From contig JAGVKQ010000019.1 in NCBI GenBank assembly GCA_020050435.1, positions 1-64,000 on the forward strand: a stretch of DNA of 64,000 bases. Reading direction: 5' to 3'. This stretch comes from Candidatus Caenarcanales bacterium. Lineage in GTDB: Bacteria; Cyanobacteriota; Vampirovibrionia; 2-02-FULL-35-15. The position numbers and the translations under genes were made by a program. This document shows positions 5,801-59,346 of the stretch, in pieces. A model generated the notes under the pieces. The model saw only the letters and a list, made by a program, of their open reading frames with translations. It was not told the origin of the DNA and did not search any database. Every line of letters begins with the position of its first letter. Within the stretch, counting starts at the first letter, position 1.

Positions 5801-5934
5801 CAGGAGCTGATGTAATGCAAAGAATGGCAGCTCCTCTAATTGGTGGAACTGTAACGTCCACAATAGTAGTTTTAGGAATACTACCTGCAGTTTACTACTT
5901 ATGGAGGATAAAGGAACTTAAGCTAACAACGTAG
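2812..5934 (+). pseudogene. Second CusA-family pump, interrupted by one in-frame TAA at 3283-3285
   Basis: Tandem paralogue of the preceding pump, about 1040 codons, close to the usual CusA length. ATG 2812 is chosen because MVNKIIDYCSRN then aligns with normal CusA N-termini; GTG 2791 is possible. After 157 codons the frame meets TAA where copy 1 has TCA (Ser), in the context GAACTTAGATAATTTC. The frame then stays open to 5934 and keeps GDMVDSAIVMVENAHKH, IDMLTTGVKTP and GMSIETAMVM. One C-to-A change explains the break. It could be a recent nonsense mutation, a sequencing error or a read-through site. The long intact remainder argues for a recent event. Confidence 0.85.
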
Positions 5935-37185: not shown

Positions 37186-37193
37186 CAATTAAT

Positions 37194-37247
37194 CATCCTT
37201 TTGATTATCTTTAGATGGATGTAAGTTGTGAATAAAACAACTATGCT
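37194..37247 (+). promoter_or_regulatory. Class I stress-type promoter (48 bp spacing)
   Basis: CATCCTTTTGATTATCTTTA then GATGG at 37194-37218, followed 23 bp later by TATGCT at 37242-37247. This is the reference form of the element shared by many genes between 37 and 59 kb. A -35-like TTGTGA lies at 37226-37231, which also fits TATAAG at 37249-37254 with 17 bp spacing. Confidence 0.7.
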
Positions 37248-37286: not shown

Positions 37287-37616
37287 ATGCCTGATACAAA
37301 TGTTGAATCTAAAATAGCTTCAGTTAATTATGATAATGGAACTAGTAATTTTAAAAAAGTAGAAACTCGAAATTCTAACATAGGCAATTTAGGGTTTTTA
37401 TTTGTAACAATGATAATAATTCTATGTGTAGTAGTTTTTACACAAAAAGCTTTTATATTTAATACAATTACACCAGCAGCAGTCACAAATACACCAGAAG
37501 TAGTTACTGAAACAGAAACCACTTATGTGGAAACTGAAAAGCCATCAGGTAATTCTGACACAAGTTTTATACAAACTGAAACTACAAAAACTGTTACTGA
37601 AACTGAAGTTGATTAA
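37287..37616 (+). CDS. Single-span membrane protein with Thr/Glu-rich tail
   Basis: A 109-residue protein with one hydrophobic helix (LGFLFVTMIIILCVVVF, about residues 35-51) and a tail made of TETETTYVETEKP and ETTKTVTETEVD repeats. It has no enzymatic motif. It is probably anchored in the inner membrane with the tail in the periplasm. It is the first gene after a class I CATCC promoter and so belongs to the proposed stress regulon. Its stop overlaps the glyoxalase gene end by 4 bp on the other strand. Confidence 0.65.
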   Translation: MPDTNVESKIASVNYDNGTSNFKKVETRNSNIGNLGFLFVTMIIILCVVVFTQKAFIFNTITPAAVTNTPEVVTETETTYVETEKPSGNSDTSFIQTETTKTVTETEVD

Positions 37617-38112: not shown

Positions 38113-38433
38113 CTAAAAAACAGGAAGAGTTTCAATGTCTTCAGGTTTGATATTTTTAGCTTTACCATCTAGCTCATCTATACTTAAGCACATTCTATCG
38201 GCAGCATCTCTTAAAGCATGTCCCACTTTTCTAACTTTATTTACTCCAACATCTTCAAGTTCTTCAAGCTTTTCTTTTGTTAGCTCTTTAAATTTTAAAG
38301 TTTTATCAACTAAATCTTTTCTTGTCTCATCTCCTGACTTTGTAGTCATGAGCACTCCTACCAATACACCCAAAAATAAACCGGATGTAAAAACATTTGC
38401 TGCTTTAATGGTACTTGCTAGTTGCTTAAACAT
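38113..38433 (-). CDS. YtxH-like stress protein
   Basis: A 106-residue YtxH-type protein. It has one membrane-associated helix (VFTSGLFLGVLVGVLMTTKSG, about residues 13-32), then helices KDLVDKTLKFKELTKEKLEEL, typical of YtxH. ATG 38433 is chosen because GAAGGTG lies 6 bp before it; the longer reading to 38514 would put the start in the promoter. The class I CATCC element (38555) gives a -10 box at 38506-38501, so the leader is about 65 nt. YtxH proteins are general-stress proteins in Bacillus. Confidence 0.8.
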   Translation of the reverse strand: MFKQLASTIKAANVFTSGLFLGVLVGVLMTTKSGDETRKDLVDKTLKFKELTKEKLEELEDVGVNKVRKVGHALRDAADRMCLSIDELDGKAKNIKPEDIETLPVF

Positions 38434-38500
38434 ATTTTCACCTTCTTTATTGTAGTAGCTTGTTAATTTACAATTAAATAAATTTTTCTCTACATTAATA

Positions 38501-38555
38501 AGGTTACTCTTCAACTAAAAAAAATAAATCCTTCTTATGGTTAATCAAAAGAATG
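38501..38555 (-). promoter_or_regulatory. Class I stress-type promoter of the YtxH gene (49 bp)
   Basis: On the minus strand, CATTCTTTTGATTAACCATA then AGAAGG starts at 38555; the -10-like TAACCT is at 38506-38501, 49 bp from the first base (one base longer than the other class I copies). A weaker match than the others. Confidence 0.5.
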
Positions 38556-38557
38556 AT

Positions 38558-39304
38558 TTAAGCTAATTGCTTTTCTTTAAGTAAACACTTTTCTAAGTCC
38601 TCTGAACCACCTATATATTTCCCACCAATAAATATTTGAGGAACGGTGGTCTTTCCAGTTATAGCAAGAAGTGTTTTGACCGTAATATTTTTCCCTATAG
38701 AGATTTCTTCATACTTCATGCCTTGTTCTGTAAGCATTGCTTTTGCTTTAGTACAGAATGGGCATCCTTCTTTTGTAAATAATGTTACTGGTTCAGGTGA
38801 TTTTTCTTTAGGATTTATGTACTTTAACATAGTTTCAGCATCTGATACTTCAAATGGATCACCTTCTTTTTCAGGCTCAATAAACATTTTTTCAATCACA
38901 CTATTTTTAACAAGCATTGAATAACGCCATGATCTTTTTCCAAAACCAATAGCTTCTTTGCCAACAAGCATGCCCATTTTGTCTGTAAATTCACCATTTC
39001 CATCTGGAATAAATCTTATCTTCTCAGCATCTTCATCTTTTTTCCAAGCATTCATTACAAAAGCATCATTTACAGAAACACAAACAATTTCATCTATGCC
39101 ATTTTTTTTAAATGTTTCTATCAGATTATTATAGCCAGGTACGTGTGCTGAAGAGCAGGTAGGAGTAAATGCTCCAGGAAGTGAAAACACAACTACAGTT
39201 TTATTTTTAAAAATATAATTACTTGTAACCTCAGCCCATTTATTATCTTCACGAATTTTAAATGTTACATCAGGTACTTTTTGACCTTCCATATTTTTTA
39301 ACAT
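38558..39304 (-). CDS. Peroxiredoxin-glutaredoxin fusion (Prx5-Grx)
   Basis: A 248-residue hybrid peroxidase that reduces peroxides with glutathione. Residues 1-165 are a PrxV domain with peroxidatic Cys in PGAFTPTCSS (near 50). Residues 175-248 are a glutaredoxin with the active site GCPFCTKA. Fusion of the two lets the Grx part regenerate Prx directly. SD AAGGAG lies 6 bp before the ATG. Neighbours gloA and a glutathione-reductase gene support use of glutathione in this organism. Confidence 0.95.
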   Translation of the reverse strand: MLKNMEGQKVPDVTFKIREDNKWAEVTSNYIFKNKTVVVFSLPGAFTPTCSSAHVPGYNNLIETFKKNGIDEIVCVSVNDAFVMNAWKKDEDAEKIRFIPDGNGEFTDKMGMLVGKEAIGFGKRSWRYSMLVKNSVIEKMFIEPEKEGDPFEVSDAETMLKYINPKEKSPEPVTLFTKEGCPFCTKAKAMLTEQGMKYEEISIGKNITVKTLLAITGKTTVPQIFIGGKYIGGSEDLEKCLLKEKQLA

Positions 39305-39400
39305 AATGATCTCCTTGCGTTTATATTAATTTTACAACGATTGTCTTTTTATTGCTAATAAATTTAAATGACATTTTTAGGAGAATTGATAGTAAGCTCA

Positions 39401-39457
39401 TCTAAAGGATGATTCTTAGTGGTAATACAGAGCAGGCATTTTTTTTAGGAGTATGCT
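39401..39457 (+). promoter_or_regulatory. CATCC-type element before the exported protein at 39494
   Basis: CTAAAGGATGATTCTTAGTG followed by GTAATACAG, similar to the element at 58921, then TATGCT at 39452-39457, 41 bp from the GATTC start rather than 48. The spacing differs, so the -10 is less certain. Confidence 0.4.
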
Positions 39458-39493: not shown

Positions 39494-40033
39494 ATGAAAA
39501 AAACGCTTAATCTCTTACTAATAGTGGCATTACTTCTTCCTTCTACCTTTTTGGTGCCTTTAGCTTCTTTGGCAGAACATGAGAAGTTAAAAGTCCCAAG
39601 TGATTTATCTATTCCTATAAGCTTTGCTGAACCTGTTACTAGTAATAAAATTGCCTCTGGTGATTCTATTCCTGTAATTATAAATAAAGATATTTATGTA
39701 GAAGAAACCTTGGTTTTTAAAAGAGGAACTGATGGAGTTGTTTTTGTAGACTCGAGTAAAAAAAGTGGACGTTGGGGAAGTGCAGGAAAAATTAAAATTA
39801 CCAGTGGAAAATTGACAGATGTATTTGGAACTCAGCATGATGTGAAAATATCTGAAAAAGAAAAAGGTGACGGTAAACCTTCAGCAAAAATATTGCCAGT
39901 TGTAGGTTTAGTTGTTTTTTGGCCTTTAATTTTATTTGGACTTAAAAAAGGTGATCAGGCAGTTATTCCTGCTGGAAAAATAGCTTATGCCTTTACAAAA
40001 GATTCAGTAAGAGTTGATACTTCAAAAAATTAG
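39494..40033 (+). CDS. Exported hypothetical protein
   Basis: A 179-residue protein with a signal peptide (LLLIVALLLPSTFLVPLASLA). The mature part is beta-rich with KSGRWGSAGKIKITSG, ends near a hydrophobic stretch (ILPVVGLVVFWPLILFGL, about residues 132-149) and finishes PAGKIAYAFTKDSVRVD. The late helix could anchor it in the membrane. No family recognised. SD GGAG is 5 bp upstream. It lies after a CATCC-type element and could be in the same stress group; function is unknown. Confidence 0.7.
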   Translation: MKKTLNLLLIVALLLPSTFLVPLASLAEHEKLKVPSDLSIPISFAEPVTSNKIASGDSIPVIINKDIYVEETLVFKRGTDGVVFVDSSKKSGRWGSAGKIKITSGKLTDVFGTQHDVKISEKEKGDGKPSAKILPVVGLVVFWPLILFGLKKGDQAVIPAGKIAYAFTKDSVRVDTSKN

Positions 40034-45252: not shown

Positions 45253-46218
45253 TTATTCATTTATAAGAATTAATTTAGTGCCACTGTTTAATATTGCTTC
45301 ATCTCCTTTAGAAAGAAGAGCAGCAGCAGCACCTATTCCGCCACCAATTGCAGCACCTGACCATGCACCACGTCCCGGCATTCCACCAGCTATAGCACCT
45401 ACTGCTGTTCCTAATGCAGCGCCAGTTCCAGCACCAATTGCAGTTTGTCCAAGACCCTTTGCTACTCTTTCAGCACCACTAGCTCCTTTGATGTTATAAG
45501 TGGCACCTATAGGATAATTACCATTAGGAGTTTTTATATTTGTGAATCTAATACCTAGTGATCCAGGATTTCCTATTTTAAATCTTCTAGCAGGCACACT
45601 AGTAATCACACTACCAGTTAATACACCGCCTGTTGGAATGATAATACCTGAGGCTACAACAACAGGAGAACTAAGAGAGGCTCTTACAGAATCTCCTACC
45701 ATACTCACGGCAGAGCTTAAAGTAGTTTCTAAATTAGTATCTAACCTTGCACCAGCTGGTACATAAACAGTTCTTGCAATAACAGCATTCTGAGTCACGG
45801 TACCTGTTTCAGTTACAGATGTTGTTGTAATTTGTGAATATCCTTCAGGAATAGCTTGTGCAGGAATTGCTTTTGGTTGTACATAACTTGTACTTGGAGC
45901 AACTGGTTTTTTATATGTTGTCATTGTCGAAGCTGGTTTAGTAGGTGTATTTTGTTTACTAGGTACTTGTACATTATTTGCTACTGTTGGATTTTGATTT
46001 TCTAAAAGAGGTAAATCAGATACAATCTCTTGTTTAAAAGTTTTATTCATATAGATATTTTGTCCAATAATAACTAAAAGTAAAATTGCTACTACTCCAA
46101 TTGATATAACCATTAGCTTATTTGACTTAGGCTTGCTTGCCCTTGTTCTTTCATGTGTAGAGGTAGATGAAGAACCGTTTTCAGTGTTTTTTTGATCGTT
46201 GTGTGTGTATATTGGCAT
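45253..46218 (-). CDS. Membrane protein with glycine-zipper domain
   Basis: A 321-residue protein. A cytoplasmic tail is followed by one helix (KLMVISIGVVAILLLVIIG, about residues 34-52). The Pro/Thr-rich middle and a beta-domain (ARTVYVPAGARLDTNL) resemble the TrbI/VirB10-like fold. The C-terminus has two glycine-zipper-like stretches, AIGAGTGAALGTAVGAIAGG and GAAIGGGIGAAAALL. ATG 46218 is chosen because GAGGAG lies 7 bp before it, not ATG 46233. A class I stress promoter is placed 34-87 bp upstream. It is probably an envelope protein. Confidence 0.7.
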   Translation of the reverse strand: MPIYTHNDQKNTENGSSSTSTHERTRASKPKSNKLMVISIGVVAILLLVIIGQNIYMNKTFKQEIVSDLPLLENQNPTVANNVQVPSKQNTPTKPASTMTTYKKPVAPSTSYVQPKAIPAQAIPEGYSQITTTSVTETGTVTQNAVIARTVYVPAGARLDTNLETTLSSAVSMVGDSVRASLSSPVVVASGIIIPTGGVLTGSVITSVPARRFKIGNPGSLGIRFTNIKTPNGNYPIGATYNIKGASGAERVAKGLGQTAIGAGTGAALGTAVGAIAGGMPGRGAWSGAAIGGGIGAAAALLSKGDEAILNSGTKLILINE

Positions 46219-46251
46219 AGTATAACTCCTCATTTATTTATTGATAAACCA

Positions 46252-46305
46252 AGCATAATCTATTTGCAAGTAATTAAAATCCACCTAAAGATATCCAAAA
46301 GAATG
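46252..46305 (-). promoter_or_regulatory. Class I stress-type promoter of the glycine-zipper gene (48 bp)
   Basis: On the minus strand, CATTCTTTTGGATATCTTTA then GGTGG begins at 46305; TATGCT follows at 46257-46252, exactly 48 bp away as in the reference at 37194. The plus-strand side faces the small membrane gene at 46394. Confidence 0.7.
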
Positions 46306-46393
46306 ATCTATTCTCCTATATTTATTACGAGTGTAAAGCTATCTTTAATGGTAAATTTAATTGTAGGTAGTAATAGAGAAACGGAGCAAAAAT

Positions 46394-46567: not shown

Positions 46568-46867
46568 TTACTTTAAACGAGCAAGCGCTGAATCAAATCC
46601 ATGTTTAAGTTCAGTACATGCTTTATCAACACTATTTTTTAATTCTTCATAGGCTTCTGCTCCAGAAGTTTTTAGTTCTTCCACTTTTTTCATAACTACA
46701 ATTTTCTTTGATTCTAATTCTTCTAATTCTTTTTGGTAGTTTATTTTTGCATCTGCTGTAGCATTTTGAGTTTTTGCTTTTAATAAATTAATTTCAGCAT
46801 CCCATTGATTGAGCTGAGCTTCAATTTTCCCATGATATTTTTCTTGATAGTCATTTTTTAAACTCAT
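46568..46867 (-). CDS. sll1863-type stress-response coiled-coil protein
   Basis: A 99-residue coiled-coil protein. The pattern EAQLNQWDAEINLLKAKTQN, ELEELESKKIVVMKKVEELK and a C-terminal GAEAYEELKNSVDKACTELK follows that of the sll1863 family of stress-response proteins. There is no membrane helix or signal peptide; location is probably cytosolic. AGGAG lies 7 bp before the ATG. The class I promoter at 46950-46897 places its start of transcription about 20 nt upstream of the ATG. Its place between two copies of the lmo0937-type gene supports a stress role. Confidence 0.75.
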   Translation of the reverse strand: MSLKNDYQEKYHGKIEAQLNQWDAEINLLKAKTQNATADAKINYQKELEELESKKIVVMKKVEELKTSGAEAYEELKNSVDKACTELKHGFDSALARLK

Positions 46868-46896: not shown

Positions 46897-46950
46897 AGCA
46901 TAGTCTATTTATAAGCAATTGAAATCCTTCCAAAGATAACCAAAAGGAGG
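46897..46950 (-). promoter_or_regulatory. Class I stress-type promoter of the sll1863-type gene (48 bp)
   Basis: On the minus strand, CCTCCTTTTGGTTATCTTTG then GAAGG begins at 46950, and TATGCT lies at 46902-46897, again 48 bp. It is a duplicate of the segment at 46252-46305. Confidence 0.7.
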
Positions 46951-47015
46951 ATGTATTCATTATGTATATAAAGCTATTCTTAAAGTTAGGCAGTTGATAT
47001 TAAAGGGAGAAAAAT

Positions 47016-47325: not shown

Positions 47326-48888
47326 CTAGGGCTTCGTAATGATATTAGAGTCTAATGAAACTGCTCCAATTCTTGTCAATGCTCTGCCGTCTAATGTTGC
47401 ACCGGTCTGAAATGTAATTGATTGATCAGCTAATATATTTCCCTTGAAAGCAGAAGTTGTCCCAATGGTTGCTGAAGTACCAACTTGCCAATAAATATTA
47501 GAAGCCATAGCACCACCACTCAGGATGACCTGGCGGGCTGGTGTTGTAGTAAGTGTAGATGCTATTTGGAAAACGAAGACAGCATTTCCATCACCCATTG
47601 CATCAAGAGTTAAATCTCCTCCTGAAATTGCAAGTGTAGATGTGGATTTATAAAGACCAGGAGCAAGTGTTTGCCCACCTAGATTTCCAGATACAGTAAT
47701 GGGAGCCGTTGATCGTCCAGCAGCCTCATTGTATGCAGTAGTTAAATCAAGTTTAGCTTGGGTACTAGTAGCATCGTTTATATGTTGAGTACCATTTACA
47801 CTTCCCGGTGGAAATCCAGTTACAGCACTTCCTGGACTTAATCCAAGATCACCATTAATGATGGTAGGACCAGTGTTTGTAACAGTAGAGCCAGCTAAAA
47901 TTGCAAAAGTAGAGCCCGCAGCTCCAAGATCTATCGTTGCTTGTTGTGAGCCGCTTGAAGTACCTCCTGAAGAGGAAGAGGAAGAACTAGAACTAGAAGA
48001 TGTACCACCTGAAGATGAGGATGAACTGGTGGAAGATGTACTCCCTGAAGAAGAAGTAGAACTACTTGATGAAGAGGTTGATCCACTTGAAGTACTGCTT
48101 GAAGATGTAGAAGAAGAAGTTGTTATTATTGTTGTGTTACCAGTTGTAAAATTCCATACAAAGTCACTTGCTAATGGATTCCCTGCAAGATCTTTAACTT
48201 GATTTGTAATTGTTGCAGTGAAATTAGAATTAGCTGGAAGATTGCTTGTAGGATGAAAAGTTGCAATGGTGCCATAGTAAGTTACAGTACCTGGAATAGA
48301 TGTTGTTCCTTGTTTTAATGTAAATGTTGTTGCATTAATAGTTAAAGGATCTATAGCTTCACTAAATGATACGCCAAAATTTCTGTTAGTAGCTATATTT
48401 GCAGAACCACTACTAGGACTTACAAGTTGTACTGTGGGGGAGATGGAGTCAATGTTTAATTTTGGACCTGTTCTGAAAGTCCACACATAATCGTTTTCCA
48501 TTGCATTGCCATGTGTATCTTTTACGTTTGGTCCAGTAGTAGTGTCACCTTTAATTGTGACTGTGTATTGGACATCCTTTATAAGAGGTTGTTTTGGTCT
48601 GAAGATTAATTTTTTGTTCTTTGTAGAGTAGCGTATTTTTCCTAAAACTTGTGTTGTAGTACCTTCTTGGAGTACGATAAATGTTCTTTTATTAAACTTT
48701 AAAGGGTTCATTTGTTCACTAAAAGTCACTTTAATTTTTTGATTAATTTCTATATTAGTTTCTCCACTAGCTGGAATTGTTAAAACTACTGTAGGTGCAG
48801 TTTGGTCTTTGCCTAATGCAATTAATGGACTACTTGTTGTAGAAATTAGAACAACTAATAACATTAATGCAATTATCTTTTTGTACAT
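47326..48888 (-). CDS. Secreted SbsA-type Ig-like protein with C-terminal ice-binding-like (DUF3494) domain
   Basis: A 520-residue exported protein. A signal peptide is followed by two SbsA-type Ig-like (Big_5) domains, each starting VVLTIPASGETNIEINQKI or VQLVSPSSGSANIATNRNF and each ending VWTFRTG / VWNFTTG. A 50-residue Ser/Thr/Gly linker follows, then a DUF3494 domain with LGAAGSTFAILAGSTVTNTG, INGDLGLSPGSAVTGF, DAMGDGNAVFVFQIA, NIYWQVGTSATIG and GNILADQSITFQTGA. DUF3494 includes ice-binding proteins; other members are adhesins of unknown target. The site at 49003 lies upstream, although its spacing has no good -10 match. Confidence 0.88.
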   Translation of the reverse strand: MYKKIIALMLLVVLISTTSSPLIALGKDQTAPTVVLTIPASGETNIEINQKIKVTFSEQMNPLKFNKRTFIVLQEGTTTQVLGKIRYSTKNKKLIFRPKQPLIKDVQYTVTIKGDTTTGPNVKDTHGNAMENDYVWTFRTGPKLNIDSISPTVQLVSPSSGSANIATNRNFGVSFSEAIDPLTINATTFTLKQGTTSIPGTVTYYGTIATFHPTSNLPANSNFTATITNQVKDLAGNPLASDFVWNFTTGNTTIITTSSSTSSSSTSSGSTSSSSSSTSSSGSTSSTSSSSSSGGTSSSSSSSSSSSGGTSSGSQQATIDLGAAGSTFAILAGSTVTNTGPTIINGDLGLSPGSAVTGFPPGSVNGTQHINDATSTQAKLDLTTAYNEAAGRSTAPITVSGNLGGQTLAPGLYKSTSTLAISGGDLTLDAMGDGNAVFVFQIASTLTTTPARQVILSGGAMASNIYWQVGTSATIGTTSAFKGNILADQSITFQTGATLDGRALTRIGAVSLDSNIITKP

Positions 48889-48978: not shown

Positions 48979-49003
48979 CCATCCAAAGATAATCAAAAGG
49001 ATG
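48979..49003 (-). promoter_or_regulatory. CATCC element upstream of the ice-binding-like gene
   Basis: On the minus strand, CATCCTTTTGATTATCTTTG then GATGG starts at 49003, a near-perfect match, but the hexamer at 48 bp is GACAAT, a poor -10. TACTAT lies 6 bp further on. Confidence 0.5.
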
Positions 49004-49028
49004 ATCTTTAGAATTTAAAGAGATTAAC

Positions 49029-49072
49029 CATCCTTTAGTTCAATATCTATTTCAAATAAATAGAACTAAGCT
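49029..49072 (+). promoter_or_regulatory. Class II stress-type promoter (38 bp spacing), copy 1
   Basis: CATCCTTTAGTTCAATATCT then ATTT begins at 49029, and TAAGCT is at 49067-49072, 38 bp away. The first bases match the class I consensus, but the later half differs. Confidence 0.65.
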
Positions 49073-49105
49073 TACTCGACTAAACAAATTAAAGGAGTCA
49101 GAATA

Positions 49106-50173
49106 ATGGACAAGACAAAAAAAATAATTGCAATTGCAATGTTGATGAGTGTTTTAAATTTCTCATCTGCATTTGCAAACAATGGAAATCATGGAAAAAA
49201 TAACGGTAATCCTAACAGTCCGCAATGTTCTAGTGGTGAAGCACAGTGCCCCGCAGGTAGGGTTCCACAATGTATGGGAAATGATGCTATGAGTATAGTT
49301 ACATGCTCTAGTAATGAAGAAAGAGCTAAATGCTGTGACACTAATGGTAAATGTACTTCAGAAAGAATTTCATGTTTAAAGATCCCTGATGGGTATTGCC
49401 CATGTTCTCTTCCTTCAGGAGTTTCTTCAACTAATTTAGCTTTTTATGTAGATGCAATGAATATTGATGGTTCAGGATTCAACTCTGCAGACTCTAATGA
49501 TAGAACAACTATTTGGGATGACTTAAGTGGAAATGCTACTGATGGACTATTAACAAATTTCACCTTCCAAGATTTAAATACGGGTTGGGAAGGTGCAAAC
49601 AGAGTTTGTAATCCTTCTGATCTAGAATTTGATGGGGTAAATGATTTTGTTAATATTGGAAATCCAGATTCATTAAATATTCCAGGCAATGAAACAATAG
49701 CCTTATGGGTTAAATTTAAAGATCCATCTAACCTTTCATCCTTATTTAGTGATTTTGACGCAAATAAAAATATAACTCAAGGAAATCTTAGAGTTGGAAA
49801 TAATGGATCAACAATTGGATACACTCAAACACATACTGATGGAACTACATTAAGTTTTGATGGTTCTGATTCATTATCTGCTAACACTTGGTATAACATT
49901 GCATTAATAAGAAATGATAACTCAAAAACAATTCAACTATATTTAAATGGGCAGCCATATGGTAACTCACAAAACTATGTTGGAAAAACTATTGTTTCGA
50001 GTAATTTAGGAAATAAGGCTATAGGGCGTGCTGGAAGTTTTGATGGAAACTATTTTAATGGAAAAATTGCAAATGTAAGAGTTTATAATGCTGCTTTAAC
50101 AGGAAATCAGGTTAATATAAACTACAATGCAGAAGTCAATAATTTCCAAAATCCTACTCCATCGTGTCCGTAA
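49106..50173 (+). CDS. Secreted LamG-like (concanavalin-fold) protein
   Basis: A 355-residue exported protein. A signal peptide (MDKTKKIIAIAMLMSVLNFS, then SAFA) precedes a Cys-rich region of about 80 residues with 12 Cys (CSSGEAQCPAGRVPQCMG, RAKCCDTNGKCTS). A LamG/jelly-roll domain follows, with LEFDGVNDFVNIGNPDSLNI, LYLNGQPYGNSQNYV and KIANVRVYNAALTGNQV. Such domains bind carbohydrates or surfaces. AAGGAG lies upstream. It is driven by a class II promoter and has a strong terminator after it. Its signal peptide is nearly shared with the protein at 50975. Confidence 0.85.
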   Translation: MDKTKKIIAIAMLMSVLNFSSAFANNGNHGKNNGNPNSPQCSSGEAQCPAGRVPQCMGNDAMSIVTCSSNEERAKCCDTNGKCTSERISCLKIPDGYCPCSLPSGVSSTNLAFYVDAMNIDGSGFNSADSNDRTTIWDDLSGNATDGLLTNFTFQDLNTGWEGANRVCNPSDLEFDGVNDFVNIGNPDSLNIPGNETIALWVKFKDPSNLSSLFSDFDANKNITQGNLRVGNNGSTIGYTQTHTDGTTLSFDGSDSLSANTWYNIALIRNDNSKTIQLYLNGQPYGNSQNYVGKTIVSSNLGNKAIGRAGSFDGNYFNGKIANVRVYNAALTGNQVNINYNAEVNNFQNPTPSCP

Positions 50174-50217
50174 CTCATGAATTAAATTGATTGAAATCAT
50201 TTGATTAATTAACTTAA

Positions 50218-50257
50218 AGCAACACTTAAAGATTTTCTTGAGTGTTGCTTTTTTTTA
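50218..50257 (+). terminator. Strong rho-independent terminator
   Basis: AGCAACACTTAA and TTGAGTGTTGCT form a 12-bp stem with one G-U pair around an 11-base loop, then eight T. Confidence 0.85.
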
Positions 50258-50272
50258 TGAAAACAACCAAAA

Positions 50273-50336
50273 GGATGATCTAGAAAATAAACCATCCTTT
50301 AGTTCAATATCTATTTCAAGCTAATACAGTTAAGCT
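50273..50336 (+). promoter_or_regulatory. Class II stress-type promoter, copy 2, with an inverted half site
   Basis: CATCCTTTAGTTCAATATCT at 50293-50312 with TAAGCT at 50331-50336 (38 bp). A reversed copy, AACCAAAAGGATGATC, lies just upstream and ends at 50280, giving an inverted pair. Confidence 0.65.
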
Positions 50337-50366
50337 TAATTAATTAAAATAAATTGAGGAATTAAC

Positions 50367-50870
50367 ATGATGAAAAAAAATTGTACTTATTTGTTATTAG
50401 CATTTGTTCTTTCGTTGGGAGTAAGCTTTGTAAGTATAGGAAGTAATAAAGCTCTAGGACAAACAGTAGTTTTGAGTGACAAATTCTCAGGTGTCTGGAC
50501 AGCAAAAGTAAATAGGACTGTTAGTGTAAACGGAGTAATAGTGAGAGAAGGTACTCGCACTATTCATCTAAGACTATGTTCAAAGAATGGAGAAATAAAG
50601 GGTATTGTAGCTCACCCAGGATTTTTTACAAAAGCTCTTATAATTAACCAGAATGTAATATCTGATAAAGAAGTAGATGTAGATGTTAGAGATAGAAGAG
50701 GCAGAACAGCGACATTAAGACTTTCTTTGGTAGATGATCTTAAGTTGAATGGCTCTTTCTCAAATGGTGTCAACTTTGAATCTACTAAAAAATCTAACTT
50801 TAATCTTTGTGAAGCATTTAGAACATGCAACTTAAATGATTTGTTTAATACTAAAGAATTTAATGACTAA
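50367..50870 (+). CDS. Secreted hypothetical protein
   Basis: A 167-residue exported protein with a signal peptide (LLLAFVLSLGVSFVSIGSNKALG). The mature part is beta-rich with SGVWTAKVNRTVSVNG and basic stretches (VDVDVRDRRGRTATLRLSL), ending CEAFRTCNLNDLF with two Cys. No family recognised. AGGA lies 6 bp before ATG. Promoter, size class and neighbours make it a member of the proposed stress group. Function unknown. Confidence 0.65.
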   Translation: MMKKNCTYLLLAFVLSLGVSFVSIGSNKALGQTVVLSDKFSGVWTAKVNRTVSVNGVIVREGTRTIHLRLCSKNGEIKGIVAHPGFFTKALIINQNVISDKEVDVDVRDRRGRTATLRLSLVDDLKLNGSFSNGVNFESTKKSNFNLCEAFRTCNLNDLFNTKEFND

Positions 50871-50884
50871 AGATAGTTGCTTTG

Positions 50885-50941
50885 CTAAAGGATAAACCAT
50901 CCTTTAGTTCAATATCTATTTAAAGTTAATAGAGTTAAGCT
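50885..50941 (+). promoter_or_regulatory. Class II stress-type promoter, copy 3, with a perfect palindrome
   Basis: CTAAAGGAT-N5-ATCCTTTAG (50885-50907) is a perfect 23-bp hyphenated palindrome that contains the CATCC start (50898). TAAGCT is at 50936-50941, 38 bp away. Confidence 0.7.
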
Positions 50942-50974
50942 TAATGGATAAAATAAATTAAGGGAGTTAATATC

Positions 50975-51466
50975 ATGGATAAGACAAAAAAAATAGTTAC
51001 AATGGCAATGTTGATAAGTGTTTTAAGTTGTTCTCAGTCACAAGCATATACAGGTAATATGGATTGGGATAATTTTAAAGCAAAGGCTGCTGCTGGTGAA
51101 ACTACAAGAAAAAATTTCATAGGTGGAAATAACCTAAAGTATGAATGCAAATATAACCATAATAAAGATGGAGTATGTAAAAAATTCTATAAAAATGGGC
51201 ATGTAGCAAAGGAATCAACATCTTCAAATAATGGACAAAATGTTACATATAGAACCTTTTTTGAAAATGGTGGAATAGCTAGTGAAAGTCGCTACATTGA
51301 TAGTCTAAGAAATGGAAAGTTTAAACAATTCTACTGGAGTTCAGCTTCAGCATTATCTTATAGACAACCATCTTCAGAATCATCTTATAAGGATGGCTAT
51401 AGACATGGTGTATCAAAAACATTCTCACCAAATGGTGCTCTTACCTGGTCACAAAATTATAATTAA
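50975..51466 (+). CDS. Secreted YwqK/MORN-like repeat protein
   Basis: A 163-residue exported protein. The signal peptide is MDKTKKIVTMAMLISVLSCS then QSQA, near-identical in its first half to that of the LamG protein at 49106. The rest has MORN-like repeats: KKFYKNGHVAKEST, YRTFFENGGIASES and KQFYWSSASALSYRQ, and HGVSKTFSPNGALTW near the end, the pattern of YwqK-type proteins. AGGGAG is near the ATG. It is driven by the third class II promoter; role unknown. Confidence 0.7.
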   Translation: MDKTKKIVTMAMLISVLSCSQSQAYTGNMDWDNFKAKAAAGETTRKNFIGGNNLKYECKYNHNKDGVCKKFYKNGHVAKESTSSNNGQNVTYRTFFENGGIASESRYIDSLRNGKFKQFYWSSASALSYRQPSSESSYKDGYRHGVSKTFSPNGALTWSQNYN

Positions 51467-52194: not shown

Positions 52195-52496
52195 TATGTT
52201 TTTATTTCCTTTTGAAAAAAAATATTAAATTCTTTCTCTTTATAAAGGTAAGTATGCTCTTTATTTGTTACCTTTATACGTTTATCTACCTAAACAATCT
52301 ATTGAAAGTATCATTTACATTTGTGAAGCGTAAAGCCTCATGATGTTTTTGCATTGTTAGTTGCCCATAGTTCCGTAAAGCAATAGCTTTAAACAAAATA
52401 AAAATCTTTAATGAATCATCTTTAGGATGATTATTAATAAGAGCCCCGCAAATCATTTGTATTTAATCATGTAAGTCAGGTACTTTAAATGAATAA
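52195..52496. other. Gap with a perfect palindrome before the histidine kinase
   Basis: No gene is seen. AATCATC-TTTAG-GATGATT at 52414-52432 is a perfect 7-bp inverted repeat with a CATC/GATG core like the stress element, but neither 38 nor 48 bp downstream has a matching -10 box. It may be a regulator binding site for the kinase/regulator operon. The rest, between the CBS gene and 52414, is AT-rich. Confidence 0.5.
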
Positions 52497-53636
52497 ATGA
52501 CTGACTTGTCTAACATGAAAGAATCGGCTGAAGAAAAAAAGCTTAACATTGTTCCTTCAATTAATGGTTTGAAATCTTTATCTGAGGAAACTTGGCAATT
52601 TGCTAAAGCAAAAAAACTGGCAGATTTAGAAAGCTTATTTGATAACTTAGGTGAAGGTATTGTTGCCTTTAGTTTGGATTTAAACGTCACAGATTCAAAT
52701 AAAGTAGGAAAGCATATAATAGAAAACTTTATAAATTTTTATTATGATGGAAAAAACTATAAATTAAAGGATCTTTTAATAATCCAAGAAGTTTTTATAA
52801 AAAATACTAACTCATTAGCTTTAATGGAAACAGCTTCTTATAATCTTTTTGGAGAAAAACATATATTTAATATTAGTGCTTCACCAATATTTTCTGAAGC
52901 GCATGTTCTTACTGGAGCCTGCTTAATTCTTAATGATATAACAGAGTCTAAAAAACATACAAAAGAGTTGGAAGATCTAATTAGTGGATTAACGCATGAT
53001 TTAAAAACTCCATTGATAGCTGCTGAAATAAACTTTATTCATTTGATAAATGAAGACTTTGGGAAAATATCAAAAGAGCAATTAGAAATTTTGACTTTAT
53101 TAAATCAGAATAATACTGATGCACTAAGATTTGTGAAAAATTTACTTGCTGTTTTTAAATATGAAGCAAAGGTGCAAAAAATAATACTTGAACCAGTTGA
53201 ACTATCAGAGCTTTTTAAGCAAGTAAATAGTTCTATTAAATCAATGCTTGAAGAGAAAAAGATTGATTTAATAGTTTCAACTTCAAACTTTCAATTTATT
53301 TGTGATCCATTTGAAATTGGCAGGGTTTTAGTGAATGTACTTACAAATGCAATTAGTGCTACTCTTAAAGGTGGACGGATTGAACTTACAGCAGTAAAAA
53401 ATGAAGAAGGAGCTGTAATTTTTACAATTGAAGATTTTGGAAATGGTATATCTGAGGAAGATTTGCCAAACCTTTTTAAAAGATTTTGGCAATCATCAAG
53501 GTCACCAAATAGTAGTGGATTAGGTTTACATCTATGCAAACATATTTTAGCAGCCCATGGGGGTAAGATAAGGGCTGAAAGTAAACTGGGGAAATGGACA
53601 AGGATAACATTTGAAATCCCTGATCTTATTGCTTAA
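52497..53636 (+). CDS. Soluble PAS histidine kinase
   Basis: A 379-residue kinase without membrane helices. Residues about 40-155 look like a PAS domain (SLFDNLGEGIVAFSLDLN, ending LILNDITESKKH). HisKA contains ISGLTHDLKTPLIAAEIN with the phospho-His. HATPase has NVLTNAISA (N box), DFGNGISEEDL (G1) and NSSGLGLHLCKHI (G2). It is 19 bp before the NarL-type regulator gene, so the two are a classical pair. No clear SD is seen at ATG 52497. A CATC palindrome lies 65-83 bp upstream. Confidence 0.9.
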   Translation: MTDLSNMKESAEEKKLNIVPSINGLKSLSEETWQFAKAKKLADLESLFDNLGEGIVAFSLDLNVTDSNKVGKHIIENFINFYYDGKNYKLKDLLIIQEVFIKNTNSLALMETASYNLFGEKHIFNISASPIFSEAHVLTGACLILNDITESKKHTKELEDLISGLTHDLKTPLIAAEINFIHLINEDFGKISKEQLEILTLLNQNNTDALRFVKNLLAVFKYEAKVQKIILEPVELSELFKQVNSSIKSMLEEKKIDLIVSTSNFQFICDPFEIGRVLVNVLTNAISATLKGGRIELTAVKNEEGAVIFTIEDFGNGISEEDLPNLFKRFWQSSRSPNSSGLGLHLCKHILAAHGGKIRAESKLGKWTRITFEIPDLIA

Positions 53637-53655: not shown

Positions 53656-54390
53656 ATGACAGAAAACCAACAAAAGAAAATTAGACTTATGCTCGTGGAA
53701 GACCATATCTTAATTAGAATTGGTATGAAATTGTCTCTTGAAAAACTTGAAAACATTGAAGTTATTGCTGAGACCTCAAATGGTAGAGAAGCCATTGACC
53801 TTGCTAGAGAAAAAAATCCAGATGTAATAATTATGGATATTGGTTTAATTGAATTAGATGGCATTGAAGCTACAAAAAAAATTAAGGAAACTAATCCAAA
53901 TATAAAAATAGTAATGTTAACAGTTCATGAATCAGAGAAAGAAATTTTAGCTAGCTTAACTAGCGGTGCCGATGGCTACTGTTTGAAAGACATCTCTCCA
54001 GAGCAATTATATATAGCAATAAAATCAGTTAATGCTGGAGAGATTTGGCTTGCAAAAGAAGTGGCAGAAAAAGTTTTAAGAAATCTTTATGGTAAAGACT
54101 TAAGCGATATTAAAAAAGTTGATTTTGCTAATAAAGTCACTGAAACTAAAAATGAAATGGCTATAAAAAAGCCATATGAAAGAACATCAGTAACCCAATT
54201 GTCTGACAGAGAACTGGACGTTTTAAAGCTAATTGTTGACGGTAAAAGCAATCAAGAAATTGCAGGAAAACTTTTCATTACTTTAGCTACTGTAAAAACC
54301 CATGTTAGGAGTATCTTAACTAAGTTAAGTGTTGATGATAGAACTCAGGCTGCAGTAAAGGGAATGAGAGAAGGATTAGTTTCATTTTAG
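53656..54390 (+). CDS. NarL/FixJ-type response regulator
   Basis: A 244-residue two-domain regulator. The receiver has LMLVEDHILI, phospho-Asp61 in VIIMDIGL, and LKDIS with the Lys. A linker of about 60 residues separates a LuxR-type HTH: LSDRELDVLKLIVDGKSNQE, IAGKLFITLATVKTHVRSIL and TKLSVDDRTQAAVKG. It is partner of the kinase at 52497. It is a good candidate for the activator that binds the shared CATCC element; this is inference. Confidence 0.93.
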   Translation: MTENQQKKIRLMLVEDHILIRIGMKLSLEKLENIEVIAETSNGREAIDLAREKNPDVIIMDIGLIELDGIEATKKIKETNPNIKIVMLTVHESEKEILASLTSGADGYCLKDISPEQLYIAIKSVNAGEIWLAKEVAEKVLRNLYGKDLSDIKKVDFANKVTETKNEMAIKKPYERTSVTQLSDRELDVLKLIVDGKSNQEIAGKLFITLATVKTHVRSILTKLSVDDRTQAAVKGMREGLVSF

Positions 54391-54410
54391 CCAGTCTTGC
54401 AGATATAAAT

Positions 54411-54464
54411 CATCCTTTTGGTTACCAAGAGTAGGGGGTTTTTTCAAGAAGAATTTGCTAGTCT
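54411..54464 (+). promoter_or_regulatory. Class I stress-type promoter (48 bp) before the endonuclease-like gene
   Basis: CATCCTTTTGGTTACCAAGA then GTAGG begins at 54411, and TAGTCT lies at 54459-54464, 48 bp away. The ATG is at 54470, so transcription would begin at about the ATG. Confidence 0.6.
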
Positions 54465-54469
54465 AGATC

Positions 54470-55975
54470 ATGAGAATTTTTACACTGGTTTTAATAAATC
54501 TAAGTTTGTTAATTTTGACTTGTAATATAGCAAATAGTGAAGATTTAGCCATTCTTTTTAAGCAACAGATAGAAGAACGTATTGATGTAAGAGATCCAGA
54601 GTTAAAACAAATTTCTGATTTTACTTTTGATGAGCTTAAAGAATTAAGTCAAACAGCTACACCTAAAGCAGATCTTCAAGCTAAATTAGATAATCATTTA
54701 TCAATGGTCTATCTCGTAGAGCGCAATAACAGCCATAAATTGGATAAACCATATCTTCGAATAGCACACTGGAATGTTGAAAGAGGACTTAATGTTGAAG
54801 ATATTAAGGAAATTCTTATTAATCAACATGATTATGAAAATAAACATATTTCAAATGTAAAACCTAGACTCAGGAAGAATTTTAAAGAAGAATTAAATAC
54901 TTTTGCAAACACTGACATCCTTTGTTTAAATGAAATAGATATTGGAATGCCTCGTACAAAATATAAAAATATTGTCTCGGAATTGGGCGATACTCTTAAT
55001 TGGGACTATGCTTATGCCACTGAATTTGTAGAAGTTGGACCTTTATTTCAAAATAAATTAGTTGATAAAGCCCTTTATAAAGGTTTGCATGGAAATGCAA
55101 TAATCTCAAAATATCCAATAATTTCTACTAAGGTGATTAGAATACCTAATGAATATGACTGGTATAGAGCTGAAGCCGTTAAGCGTCAATCCCCTCTTGA
55201 ACATGTGAGGCATTTTGGTGCAATGGCAATTTTCAGTGAAAAAATTGAATATAAAGAAGTGAGGCATGGAAGTAGGAATGCATTAATTGCTGATATTCAA
55301 CTTCCAGATGGTCAAATAATTACAGTAGTTTCTACACACTTAGAAGACAGAGCTTATGCTGATAAAAGGCTTAAACAATTTAAATATCTTTTAGAAAATC
55401 TAAAAGATAAAAAAACTCCTGTAATTCTAGCTGGGGATTTAAATACCTCTACTACTGAGACCATACCTACATCTTTAAAGAAAGAAGTTGTAAAAAGAAT
55501 TAGAGATCCACATTTTGTTTTAAGAGCGGCTGCTACTCCATTTATCCCTGGATTGCCGATAGCATGTGCATTGGCTTCTGTTCCAATTAGTAAGCTCCTT
55601 GCATATAAAGATCCTTTTTTCCCTAGCATCCCCATAGTATTTCCAAACCATGAAAGACGATTTTATGCTTCCTTAAAGAAATTTAAATTTAATGATGGAA
55701 ATACTTTTGATTTAAGTGGAGATAAAGAAAAAAGCTCAAATAGAAGAGGGGGGCTTCTTGCAAACTCTAATCAAAGACACTGGAAAGGATTTAAAAGCAC
55801 TTTTAAATTGAAAGAACCTAGATTAATTGCATACTTTAAACTAGATTGGTTTTTTGTAAAACCAGTAGGAGAACACTTTATGCCTTTTAATGGAAAAACA
55901 TTAAAAACTTTAAACTATTCTTCAATAGGTCATATTTCTGATCATAATCCTATAACTGTAGATTTAACTCTTTAG
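54470..55975 (+). CDS. Exported endonuclease/exonuclease/phosphatase-family protein
   Basis: A 501-residue secreted member of the EEP superfamily (DNase I-like phosphodiesterases). A signal peptide (LVLINLSLLILTCNIANS) precedes the domain. Catalytic stations are LRIAHWNVERG (Asn), DILCLNEIDIG (Glu), AIISKYPI, VSTHLEDR, ILAGDLNTS (Asp/Asn) and SDHNPITVDL (His). Length is longer than most EEPs, with inserts in the C-terminal half. A class I promoter places the probable transcription start within about one base of the ATG, so the mRNA may be leaderless. Substrate unknown. Confidence 0.88.
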   Translation: MRIFTLVLINLSLLILTCNIANSEDLAILFKQQIEERIDVRDPELKQISDFTFDELKELSQTATPKADLQAKLDNHLSMVYLVERNNSHKLDKPYLRIAHWNVERGLNVEDIKEILINQHDYENKHISNVKPRLRKNFKEELNTFANTDILCLNEIDIGMPRTKYKNIVSELGDTLNWDYAYATEFVEVGPLFQNKLVDKALYKGLHGNAIISKYPIISTKVIRIPNEYDWYRAEAVKRQSPLEHVRHFGAMAIFSEKIEYKEVRHGSRNALIADIQLPDGQIITVVSTHLEDRAYADKRLKQFKYLLENLKDKKTPVILAGDLNTSTTETIPTSLKKEVVKRIRDPHFVLRAAATPFIPGLPIACALASVPISKLLAYKDPFFPSIPIVFPNHERRFYASLKKFKFNDGNTFDLSGDKEKSSNRRGGLLANSNQRHWKGFKSTFKLKEPRLIAYFKLDWFFVKPVGEHFMPFNGKTLKTLNYSSIGHISDHNPITVDLTL

Positions 55976-58054: not shown

Positions 58055-58642
58055 ATGAATGAAGTAATTAAAATTTTATTAGTCGAAGATAACCTGGGTG
58101 ATGCAGGGTTAATCCAAGAAAGCTTGGCAGAAAAAGCTGCATTATTTGAAATTACGCATGTTGATAGACTTTCTGAAGCTATCAAGCTTCTTGAGGGAAA
58201 TAATTTTGATCTAGTTTTATTAGATCTTTCACTTCCAGATAGTAGTGGAATTGATACATTTAGAAAAGTACAGTTAAAAATTCCAAATCTCCCAATTATC
58301 TTATTAACAGGACTTGATGATGAAGTATTGGCTCTTAAATTGATTAAAGAGGGTGCTCAAGATTATTTAGTAAAAGGACAAATAAATAGTAAAGTTCTCA
58401 TTAAATCTATTTGTTATGCATTTGAAAGACACAATAAAAATAGTGAAAAAGCTCAAAGAAAAGATGAGATCGTAAAAAGTGAGGAAACCGAGCATGCAGT
58501 TAGTGAAATTGAAAAATCAATTTTAACACTTATAGCAGAAGGCATGTCTAATGAGAAAATTGCAGAGAAGTTACACTTAAGTCTTTCTACAATTAGAAGC
58601 CATATGGGTGTAGTAATTACAAAGCTGTATGTTTCTAACTGA
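58055..58642 (+). CDS. Receiver-HTH response regulator with short LuxR domain
   Basis: A 195-residue regulator. Receiver: ILLVEDNLGDAGL, phospho-Asp57 in LVLLDLSLPDSS, and YLVKGQ with the Lys. A Glu/Lys linker follows. The HTH has ILTLIAEGMSNEKIAEKLHL and SLSTIRSHMGVVITKL, then stops at YVSN, about 10-15 residues before the usual end of a LuxR domain, so the last helix is missing. It lies 3 bp after the stand-alone receiver. The missing helix may weaken dimerisation. No downstream frame restores it. Confidence 0.82.
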   Translation: MNEVIKILLVEDNLGDAGLIQESLAEKAALFEITHVDRLSEAIKLLEGNNFDLVLLDLSLPDSSGIDTFRKVQLKIPNLPIILLTGLDDEVLALKLIKEGAQDYLVKGQINSKVLIKSICYAFERHNKNSEKAQRKDEIVKSEETEHAVSEIEKSILTLIAEGMSNEKIAEKLHLSLSTIRSHMGVVITKLYVSN

Positions 58643-58655
58643 TCTTAAATAGTTT

Positions 58656-58880
58656 TTATACTTTCTTTGTACTACTCATGATAAGTAAAATTACTCCACT
58701 AGCTAATGCAATTGTTCCAAAAGCTGGTAGTAGTGGTACTTCTTTTGTTTTCTCACTTGTTATTTCCAGTGGTCCTAAATCTAGGACTTTTTCTTTTGAT
58801 GTATAAGTAATTCCTTGATAAGCAAATGCTAGGATTCCCATAGAAATTAGCACGATTATAAGTATGGTATTTTGTTTCAT
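58656..58880 (-). CDS. Two-helix small membrane protein
   Basis: A 74-residue protein with two membrane helices (ILIIVLISMGILAFAYQ, residues 6-22, and LPAFGTIALASGVILLIM, about 51-68) joined by YTSKEKVLDLGPLEITSEKT. The sequence AYQGITYT with a KVLDLGP loop is conserved in a family of short inner-membrane proteins; it resembles DUF3185, which I could not verify. It converges on the regulator gene. Confidence 0.7.
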   Translation of the reverse strand: MKQNTILIIVLISMGILAFAYQGITYTSKEKVLDLGPLEITSEKTKEVPLLPAFGTIALASGVILLIMSSTKKV

Positions 58881-58920
58881 CTGCTAAGTTTAGCTTTATT
58901 GGTTTGGAAAAGATATTGAA

Positions 58921-58983
58921 CTAAAGGATGATCCTTTTGGTTATCTTTGGGAGGAATCGCATCGTATGCAAAAGATGTATTCT
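58921..58983 (+). promoter_or_regulatory. Class I stress-type promoter (48 bp) with palindrome
   Basis: CTAAAGGATGATCCTTTTGG then TTATCTTTGGGAGG: AAAGGAT-G-ATCCTTT is a palindrome at the upstream edge. From GATCC (58930) to TATTCT (58978-58983) is exactly 48 bp. Gene start at 59023. Confidence 0.7.
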
Positions 58984-59022
58984 TAAATCCAGGAATTAGC
59001 CAAAAAAATGAAATGGGGAAAT

Positions 59023-59346
59023 ATGACACAACTAGAATACATGGAAGAGTTATTAACAGAAAGTGCTAATGTGGGAAAATGTGAAGAATTGCTCTCAAAT
59101 GCATGTAATTGTTTGGATAACTACGATTCAGAAACTGCATTTAATGAAATCAATAGAGCAATTGCTATTTTAAAATTAGATGTTAGAACTACTTGTTCTA
59201 AAGAAAGAAGAAATCTTCTTAAAGACTCTACTGAAACATTACAAATGCTTACACATGAGATGAAGCTAGGAAATAGAAATCAAGAAATAAGTCTCAGTGC
59301 ATCATTAACAAGAGTTCACAAAACCATTATGCAATGTAATTGGTGA
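59023..59346 (+). CDS. Small helical hypothetical protein
   Basis: A 107-residue soluble protein, probably all-helical (MTQLEYMEELLTESANVGKC, YDSETAFNEINRAIAILKL), with several Cys (KCEEL, NACNCL, TTCSKE). ATG 59023 is chosen because GGGG lies 6-9 bp before it; ATG 59008 is also possible. The pattern of short helices recalls the exported protein at 44788. It is the first gene after a strong class I promoter and is likely part of the stress group. Function unknown. Confidence 0.6.
   Translation: MTQLEYMEELLTESANVGKCEELLSNACNCLDNYDSETAFNEINRAIAILKLDVRTTCSKERRNLLKDSTETLQMLTHEMKLGNRNQEISLSASLTRVHKTIMQCNW

Follow-up and report, generated by a model that had tools for sequence, protein, structure and literature searches.

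A putative NarL-family operator placed at two distances, one helical turn apart, from the -10 region in a Candidatus Caenarcanales bacterium

Results

A short box precedes -10-like hexamers at two discrete spacings

In the 64,000-nt stretch of DNA analysed here (the window), a short conserved box lies upstream of a -10-like hexamer at one of two discrete spacings, 48 or 49 bp in class I and 38 bp in class II, about one helical turn apart. These constant spacings support the suggestion of the first-pass annotation that the box is a candidate protein-binding site held at a fixed distance from the hexamer. We propose, with a probability of roughly 0.7, that the box is the operator of an autoregulated NarL-family stress regulon, and that the response regulator encoded at 53656-54390 would activate transcription from both positions. 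The sites and genes are collected in Table 1.

Table 1. Candidate promoters, boxes and associated genes in the window
Feature	Position	Strand	Details
Class I promoter	37192..37247	+	TATGCT at 37242, 48 bp; gene 37287-37616
Class I promoter	46897..46952	-	TATGCT at 46902, 48 bp; gene 46568-46867, sll1863-family stress protein
Class I promoter	46252..46307	-	TATGCT at 46257, 48 bp; gene 45253-46233, Gly-zipper (weak match)
Class I promoter	58928..58983	+	TATTCT at 58978, 48 bp; gene 59008-59346; overlaps divergent class II box
Diverged class I promoter	38501..38557	-	Box ATCATTCTTTTGATTAA; TAACCT at 49 bp; YtxH gene 38113-38514
Class I box ATCATCCTTTTGATTAT	48989..49005	-	Faces gene 47326-48888 (Big_5/Ice_binding)
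Class II promoter	49027..49074	+	Box ACCATCCTTTAGTTCAA; 20-mer 49029-49048; TAAGCT at 49067, 38 bp after CATCC
Class II promoter	50291..50338	+	20-mer 50293-50312; TAAGCT at 50331, 38 bp
Class II promoter	50896..50943	+	20-mer 50898-50917; TAAGCT at 50936, 38 bp
Class II promoter	58885..58932	-	Fourth copy 58930-58911; TAAACT at 58892, 38 bp
Gene	49106-50173	+	Laminin_G_3; signal peptide by eye; class II promoter 49027..49074
Gene	50367-50870	+	Behind class II promoter 50291..50338
Gene	50975-51466	+	MORN_2; behind class II promoter 50896..50943
74-aa ORF	58880-58656	-	Membrane-like; class II promoter 58885..58932; promoter and spacing kept in G002 orthologue
Near-perfect palindrome ATCATCTTTAGGATGAT	52415..52431		82 bp upstream of kinase ORF start; between CBS gene and kinase-regulator operon
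Box ATCATCCTTTTGGTTAC	54409..54425	+	Diverged class I; precedes gene 54470-55975 (Exo_endo_phos)
Second box ATCATCCTTTTGGTTGT	50263..50279	-	Immediately upstream of 50293 promoter
Box ATCATCCTTTAGATGAG	39397..39413	-	Between divergent genes 38558-39304 (peroxiredoxin-glutaredoxin) and 39494-40033
Histidine kinase	52497..53636	+	HisKA weak, HATPase_c; proposed partner kinase
NarL/LuxR-type response regulator	53656..54390	+	Response_reg and GerE; proposed box binder

Class II is a closed set of seven sites

It had been reported that the 20-mer CATCCTTTAGTTCAATATCT lies 38 bp before TAAGCT at three sites, and the distance is exact at all three, counted start to start. When up to three mismatches were allowed, the window held four matches to the 20-mer, against 0.03 expected by chance; the copy on the minus strand at 58930-58911 is additional to the three. 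Because the upstream 20-mer was the search key, the constant distance to a -10-like hexamer counts as independent evidence. Three further sites were located outside the window (C12:278703, C19:98280 and C19:100388), each 38 bp from TAAGCTTA or TAAACTTA. The bacterium's own genome (2.49 Mb, 30 contigs) contains seven class II sites in total, with a spacing of 38 bp in seven of seven. A 53-nt profile built from the sequences of these seven retrieved precisely the same seven at 55-62 bits, and the next match scored 15.7 bits; class II is therefore a closed set.

The stretches 49022-49129 and 50891-50998 (108 nt, signal-peptide codons included) are 83% identical, so the class II sites 49029 and 50898, which both sit in this duplication, are not independent. 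The mature proteins that follow the duplicated promoter and signal-peptide codons (Laminin_G_3 and MORN_2) are unrelated, which looks like reuse of a promoter-signal-peptide cassette. Such copies could be taken to mean that the element plays no part in regulation and is a small sequence that is mobile or has been duplicated. We consider this hardly credible, as the other class II sites have only the promoter of about 50 bp in common, its position ahead of the genes is fixed, and a second genus retains the spacing. An attC-like reading of GTTAAGC was dropped, since other copies read ACTAAGC or GCTAAAC.

The genes behind the 49029, 50293 and 50898 promoters had all been described as encoding secreted proteins. 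By eye this stands for these three genes, but not for the class: the other four class II genes encode a PBP1A-type enzyme, a DUF326 protein without signal peptide, the 74-aa membrane-like protein and a short ORF, which rules out secretion as its defining property. The 74-aa ORF begins 12 nt after the start of TAAACT (58880-58892), which would leave its mRNA with little or no leader; the leader of its orthologue in G002 is slightly longer.

Class I promoters hold a spacing of 48 or 49 bp

In the window, the related class I sites, with the sequence ATCATCCTTTTGRTTATCTTTRGRWGGAT (ATCATCCTTTTGRTTATC...), are found at 37194(+), 58930(+), 49003(-), 46950(-) and 46305(-), with diverged forms at 38555(-) and 54411(+). 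The genome contains five strong class I sites, every one of them inside the window. The diverged site at 38555(-) belongs to a YtxH gene (38113-38514) whose G002 orthologue is preceded by a full class I promoter. Some class I boxes have no -10-like hexamer at 48-49 bp, and none was found at this distance from the box at 48989..49005 (-). The gene that this box faces encodes a secreted-looking protein of 520 aa with Big_5 and Ice_binding domains.

Among 38 class I-like promoters of the family, the hexamer TA[TA]NNT occurred at offset 48 in 7 and at offset 49 in 9 (16/38); these promoters are related by descent, so the counts show that spacing is conserved and do not amount to 38 separate events. 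Over the range of offsets from 15 to 84, all remaining positions carried at most four such hexamers, with about one expected per offset, and in shuffled class I-like sequences at least seven at a single offset were obtained with a frequency of about 0.0001. For class II, counted over the own genome and G002, a hexamer stood at offset 38 in eight of nine promoters. The mean spacings of the two classes differ by about 10.5 bp, which is one helical turn.

The hexamers TAAGCT, TAAACT, TATGCT and TATTCT all carry the T1, A2 and T6 of a sigma-70-type element, and we infer that TAARCT/TATKCT is the -10. With the start of the -10 hexamer set at -12, the 17-bp box of class I would be centred near -54; for class II the centre would fall near -44, where the box overlaps the -35. 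Both values are estimates that rest on the -10 hexamer instead of mapped starts.

The two classes are distinct promoter architectures

The first-pass annotation had treated class II as the class I element moved by 10 bp. This did not hold, as the two classes have nothing in common beyond ATCATCCTTT[AT]G and the -10 module. The 20-30 bp that follow the shared ATCATCCTTT[AT]G differ (AGTTCAATATCT versus TGRTTATCTTTRGRWGGAT), and the promoters, when aligned on the -10, share the -10 module (AATAGA..TAWRCTTA at best) and not the intervening sequence. Because the sequence between box and -10 module differs, we regard the classes as two promoter architectures and not as one moved element.

In class II the -35 is a poor hexamer, TATCTA or a similar sequence, as would be expected of an activator-dependent promoter. 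Class II has no recognisable second half-site, and its conserved stretch exceeds what a palindrome explains; given the conservation through the -35, a second factor or a sigma subunit may read it. Taken further, class II could be mainly an alternative-sigma promoter, with a dedicated sigma factor reading the whole 53 nt, TTCAATATCT over the -35 and AATAGAGYTAARCTTA included. Its conservation does extend through the -35 to the -10, and the -10 module is common to class II and the class I promoters of the same genome. This module also resembles the extended -10 of sigma-S-type promoters, which we counted for the sigma reading. However, the block with the strongest conservation, CATCCTTTAG, is situated about 40-50 bp upstream of the start, farther than a sigma subunit normally reaches, and both class I and the regulator operon carry it without the remainder of class II. 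In other genera, moreover, class I -10s are TATTCT-like. A dedicated sigma factor as the main reader is accordingly quite unlikely in our judgement.

We entertain, as a doubtful extension of the operator reading, that class II is a distinct, lineage-specific architecture in which a fixed -35/-10 block, perhaps read by a dedicated sigma factor, has been joined to one regulator half-site, exactly one turn closer than in class I, the more widespread of the two. If so, one regulator would activate in two discrete modes in this lineage, and two sets of genes could be kept apart in this way.

The box is a usually half-degenerate palindrome

Comparison across the family indicated that the element is a palindrome, ATCATCCTT-AAGGATGAT, which is usually half-degenerate. 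Symmetrical forms were found before the kinase-regulator operon: ATCATCCTAAAGGATGAT in G003, ATCATCCTTAAGGATGAC in G008 and ATCATCTTTAGGATGAT at 52415 in the window. The class I and class II boxes retain one strong half, ATCATCCTT.

Where neighbouring genes diverge, the two boxes in the intergenic region point away from each other, which accounts for the longer inverted repeats AAAGGATGAT..ATCATCCTTT. No clear phasing was seen by eye among these pairs, whose centres are 12 to 40 bp apart. Inverted repeats of this kind can form a stem, in one case of 14 bp with a 6-nt loop, and might be transcription terminators or RNA hairpins instead of operators. This is very improbable: the repeats lie upstream of the -10, in the gap that separates divergent gene starts, their loop length varies, and many boxes have no partner at all. 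An Rfam search of the window gave no RNA family match. At 58916-58944 the divergent class I and class II boxes share 5 bp, an overlap that makes simultaneous occupancy hardly possible.

The boxes are linked to a kinase-regulator operon

The protein encoded at 53656-54390 combines a receiver domain (Response_reg, E=1e-26) with a C-terminal helix-turn-helix (GerE, E=7e-20), and its phosphoacceptor, D61, is invariant in 13 orthologues and paralogues. The kinase gene lies 20 bp upstream in the window, and a kinase homologue accompanies the regulator in most family genomes. Orthologues of the regulator are present in all 11 family genomes, at 66-81% identity.

Strict boxes (ATCATCCTTTWGNTT) numbered 19 in these 11 genomes, whereas the reversed control gave 2, and 96 other genomes of the class contained 11; the element is concentrated in this family of groundwater Melainabacteria. 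Sixteen of the 19, in seven of the nine box-bearing genomes, lie on the same contig as the regulator gene and within 30 kb of it, a limit chosen after seeing the data; the other three, found singly in G000, G003 and G008, are not near the regulator. A simple binomial puts this linkage at about 1e-17, which overstates it because sites in one island are not independent; with genomes as units the value is about 5e-5, for a per-genome chance of 0.15 that was roughly set by hand. Clustering of stress genes could account for part of the linkage.

A box with at most one mismatch was found upstream of, or at the start of, 9 of 15 regulator operons, several times as a full palindrome, compared with 12% of background windows of equal size, none of which held an exact copy. 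About 6 of the 15 operons had no upstream box, and no box was found near the regulator of G006.

The same promoter logic could serve another binder, such as the NarL-type regulator at 58055-58642 or a regulator whose gene lies elsewhere. The former likewise has Response_reg and GerE domains and lies 270 bp from a box pair. Its counterparts near boxes elsewhere are weak or absent, however, whereas the 53656 regulator and its kinase occur in nearly all genomes and boxes precede the 52497-type operon in several genera. None of the other regulators of the window is co-located with boxes as consistently as 53656-54390, and a different binder appears unlikely to us.

Under the preferred reading, that of an operator for the 53656-54390 regulator, CATCCTTT would be the strong half of the operator palindrome. 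The kinase (52497-53636) would phosphorylate the regulator, which would then bind ATCATCCTT-AAGGATGAT. In class I it would activate from a position centred near -54, with CATCC 48-49 bp before the -10 hexamer, and in class II from near -44, overlapping the -35, at 38 bp. Since these positions are about one helical turn apart, the activator would meet RNA polymerase on the same DNA face. Binding upstream of its own operon would provide autoregulation. We infer both the identity of the binder and activation by it from the sequence comparisons described here.

The genes downstream overall encode Hsp20, CBS-domain, YtxH, norB-like, sll1863-family, DUF326, PBP1A and secreted or membrane proteins, and universal stress protein genes adjoin box-bearing genes. 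Hsp20, norB (nitric-oxide-reductase-like) and the universal stress proteins were named by eye from translations. By these predicted functions, the boxes precede stress genes (hsp20, CBS, ytxH, norB and the sll1863 family).

Both spacings are kept in other genera

The first-pass annotation had called for a search for the same spacing classes in other genomes, and both were seen in other genera. Spacing did not vary freely between orthologous promoters, which would have spoken against the proposal: it stayed at 38 or 37 bp in class II and at 48 or 49 bp in class I, although orthologous genomes are non-independent samples. Outside its own genome, class II was found in one of the 59 relatives searched (G002, a sister genus), before the orthologue of the 74-aa membrane-like gene at 38 bp and before that of the MORN gene at 37 bp with TAACCT. 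Class I was found in G001, G002 and G009, before hsp20, ytxH and norB, and the class I -10s of other genera are TATTCT-like. The named records with close orthologues are all metagenome assemblies of Candidatus Melainabacteria, several of them labelled groundwater. Weak R1 matches in other families (e.g. groEL-like L065, L072 and L073) were discarded, as they look like coding sequence by eye.

Discussion

Profile matches of the 53656-54390 regulator were strongest to VraR (9e-50), followed by NarL (4e-37), DesR (1e-28) and DevR (1e-28). VraR/LiaR, NarL and DevR (DosR) have the same receiver and GerE helix-turn-helix, and VraR/LiaR is the closest by sequence. Members of the NarL family usually have a palindromic operator upstream of the -10, and an operator at their own operon as well. 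The present case differs in the operator itself, ATCATCCTT-AAGGATGAT, in its two sharply defined spacings and in the kinase, where 52497 has HisKA and NarL-type partners usually have HisKA_3.

In content, the mycobacterial DosR/DevR dormancy regulon is alike, with Hsp20, universal stress, CBS and redox/NO genes around a kinase-regulator pair. The DosR/DevR operator is TTSGGGACTWWAGTCCCSAA and the kinase is of the DevS/DosT type (GAF, HisKA_3). Here the box reads ATCATCCTTWAGGATGAT, and the 52497 kinase matches only HisKA (weakly) and HATPase_c. Because operator, kinase type and lineage differ, we do not file these genes as a DosR regulon.

The class I and class II promoters of CRP likewise have discrete activator positions, whole helical turns apart, that present the same face to polymerase. 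Their centres are at -61.5 and -41.5, compared with near -54 and -44 here, values reckoned from the -10 hexamer rather than mapped starts.

A search of the open literature on regulons and promoters of this uncultured non-photosynthetic cyanobacterial sister group found nothing on the subject. For a stress response in this group, the present analysis supplies a candidate operator, a candidate regulator and a list of targets. It also offers a natural promoter series, with one box at two positions one helical turn apart, as a test set for activator-polymerase geometry.

Near distant homologues of the regulator (Nitrospirae, Desulfobacterales and Microvirga), a search for the palindrome gave nothing convincing. 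A single near-perfect ACCATCCTTTAGGATGAT palindrome occurs 5 kb from a distant regulator homologue on a Desulfobacteraceae contig (L169:5001) and is probably due to chance. Elsewhere in the window, long direct repeats (2-180 and 3112-3290, at a constant spacing of 3110 bp) mark two tandem paralogous large ORFs (512-2827 and 3553-5934).
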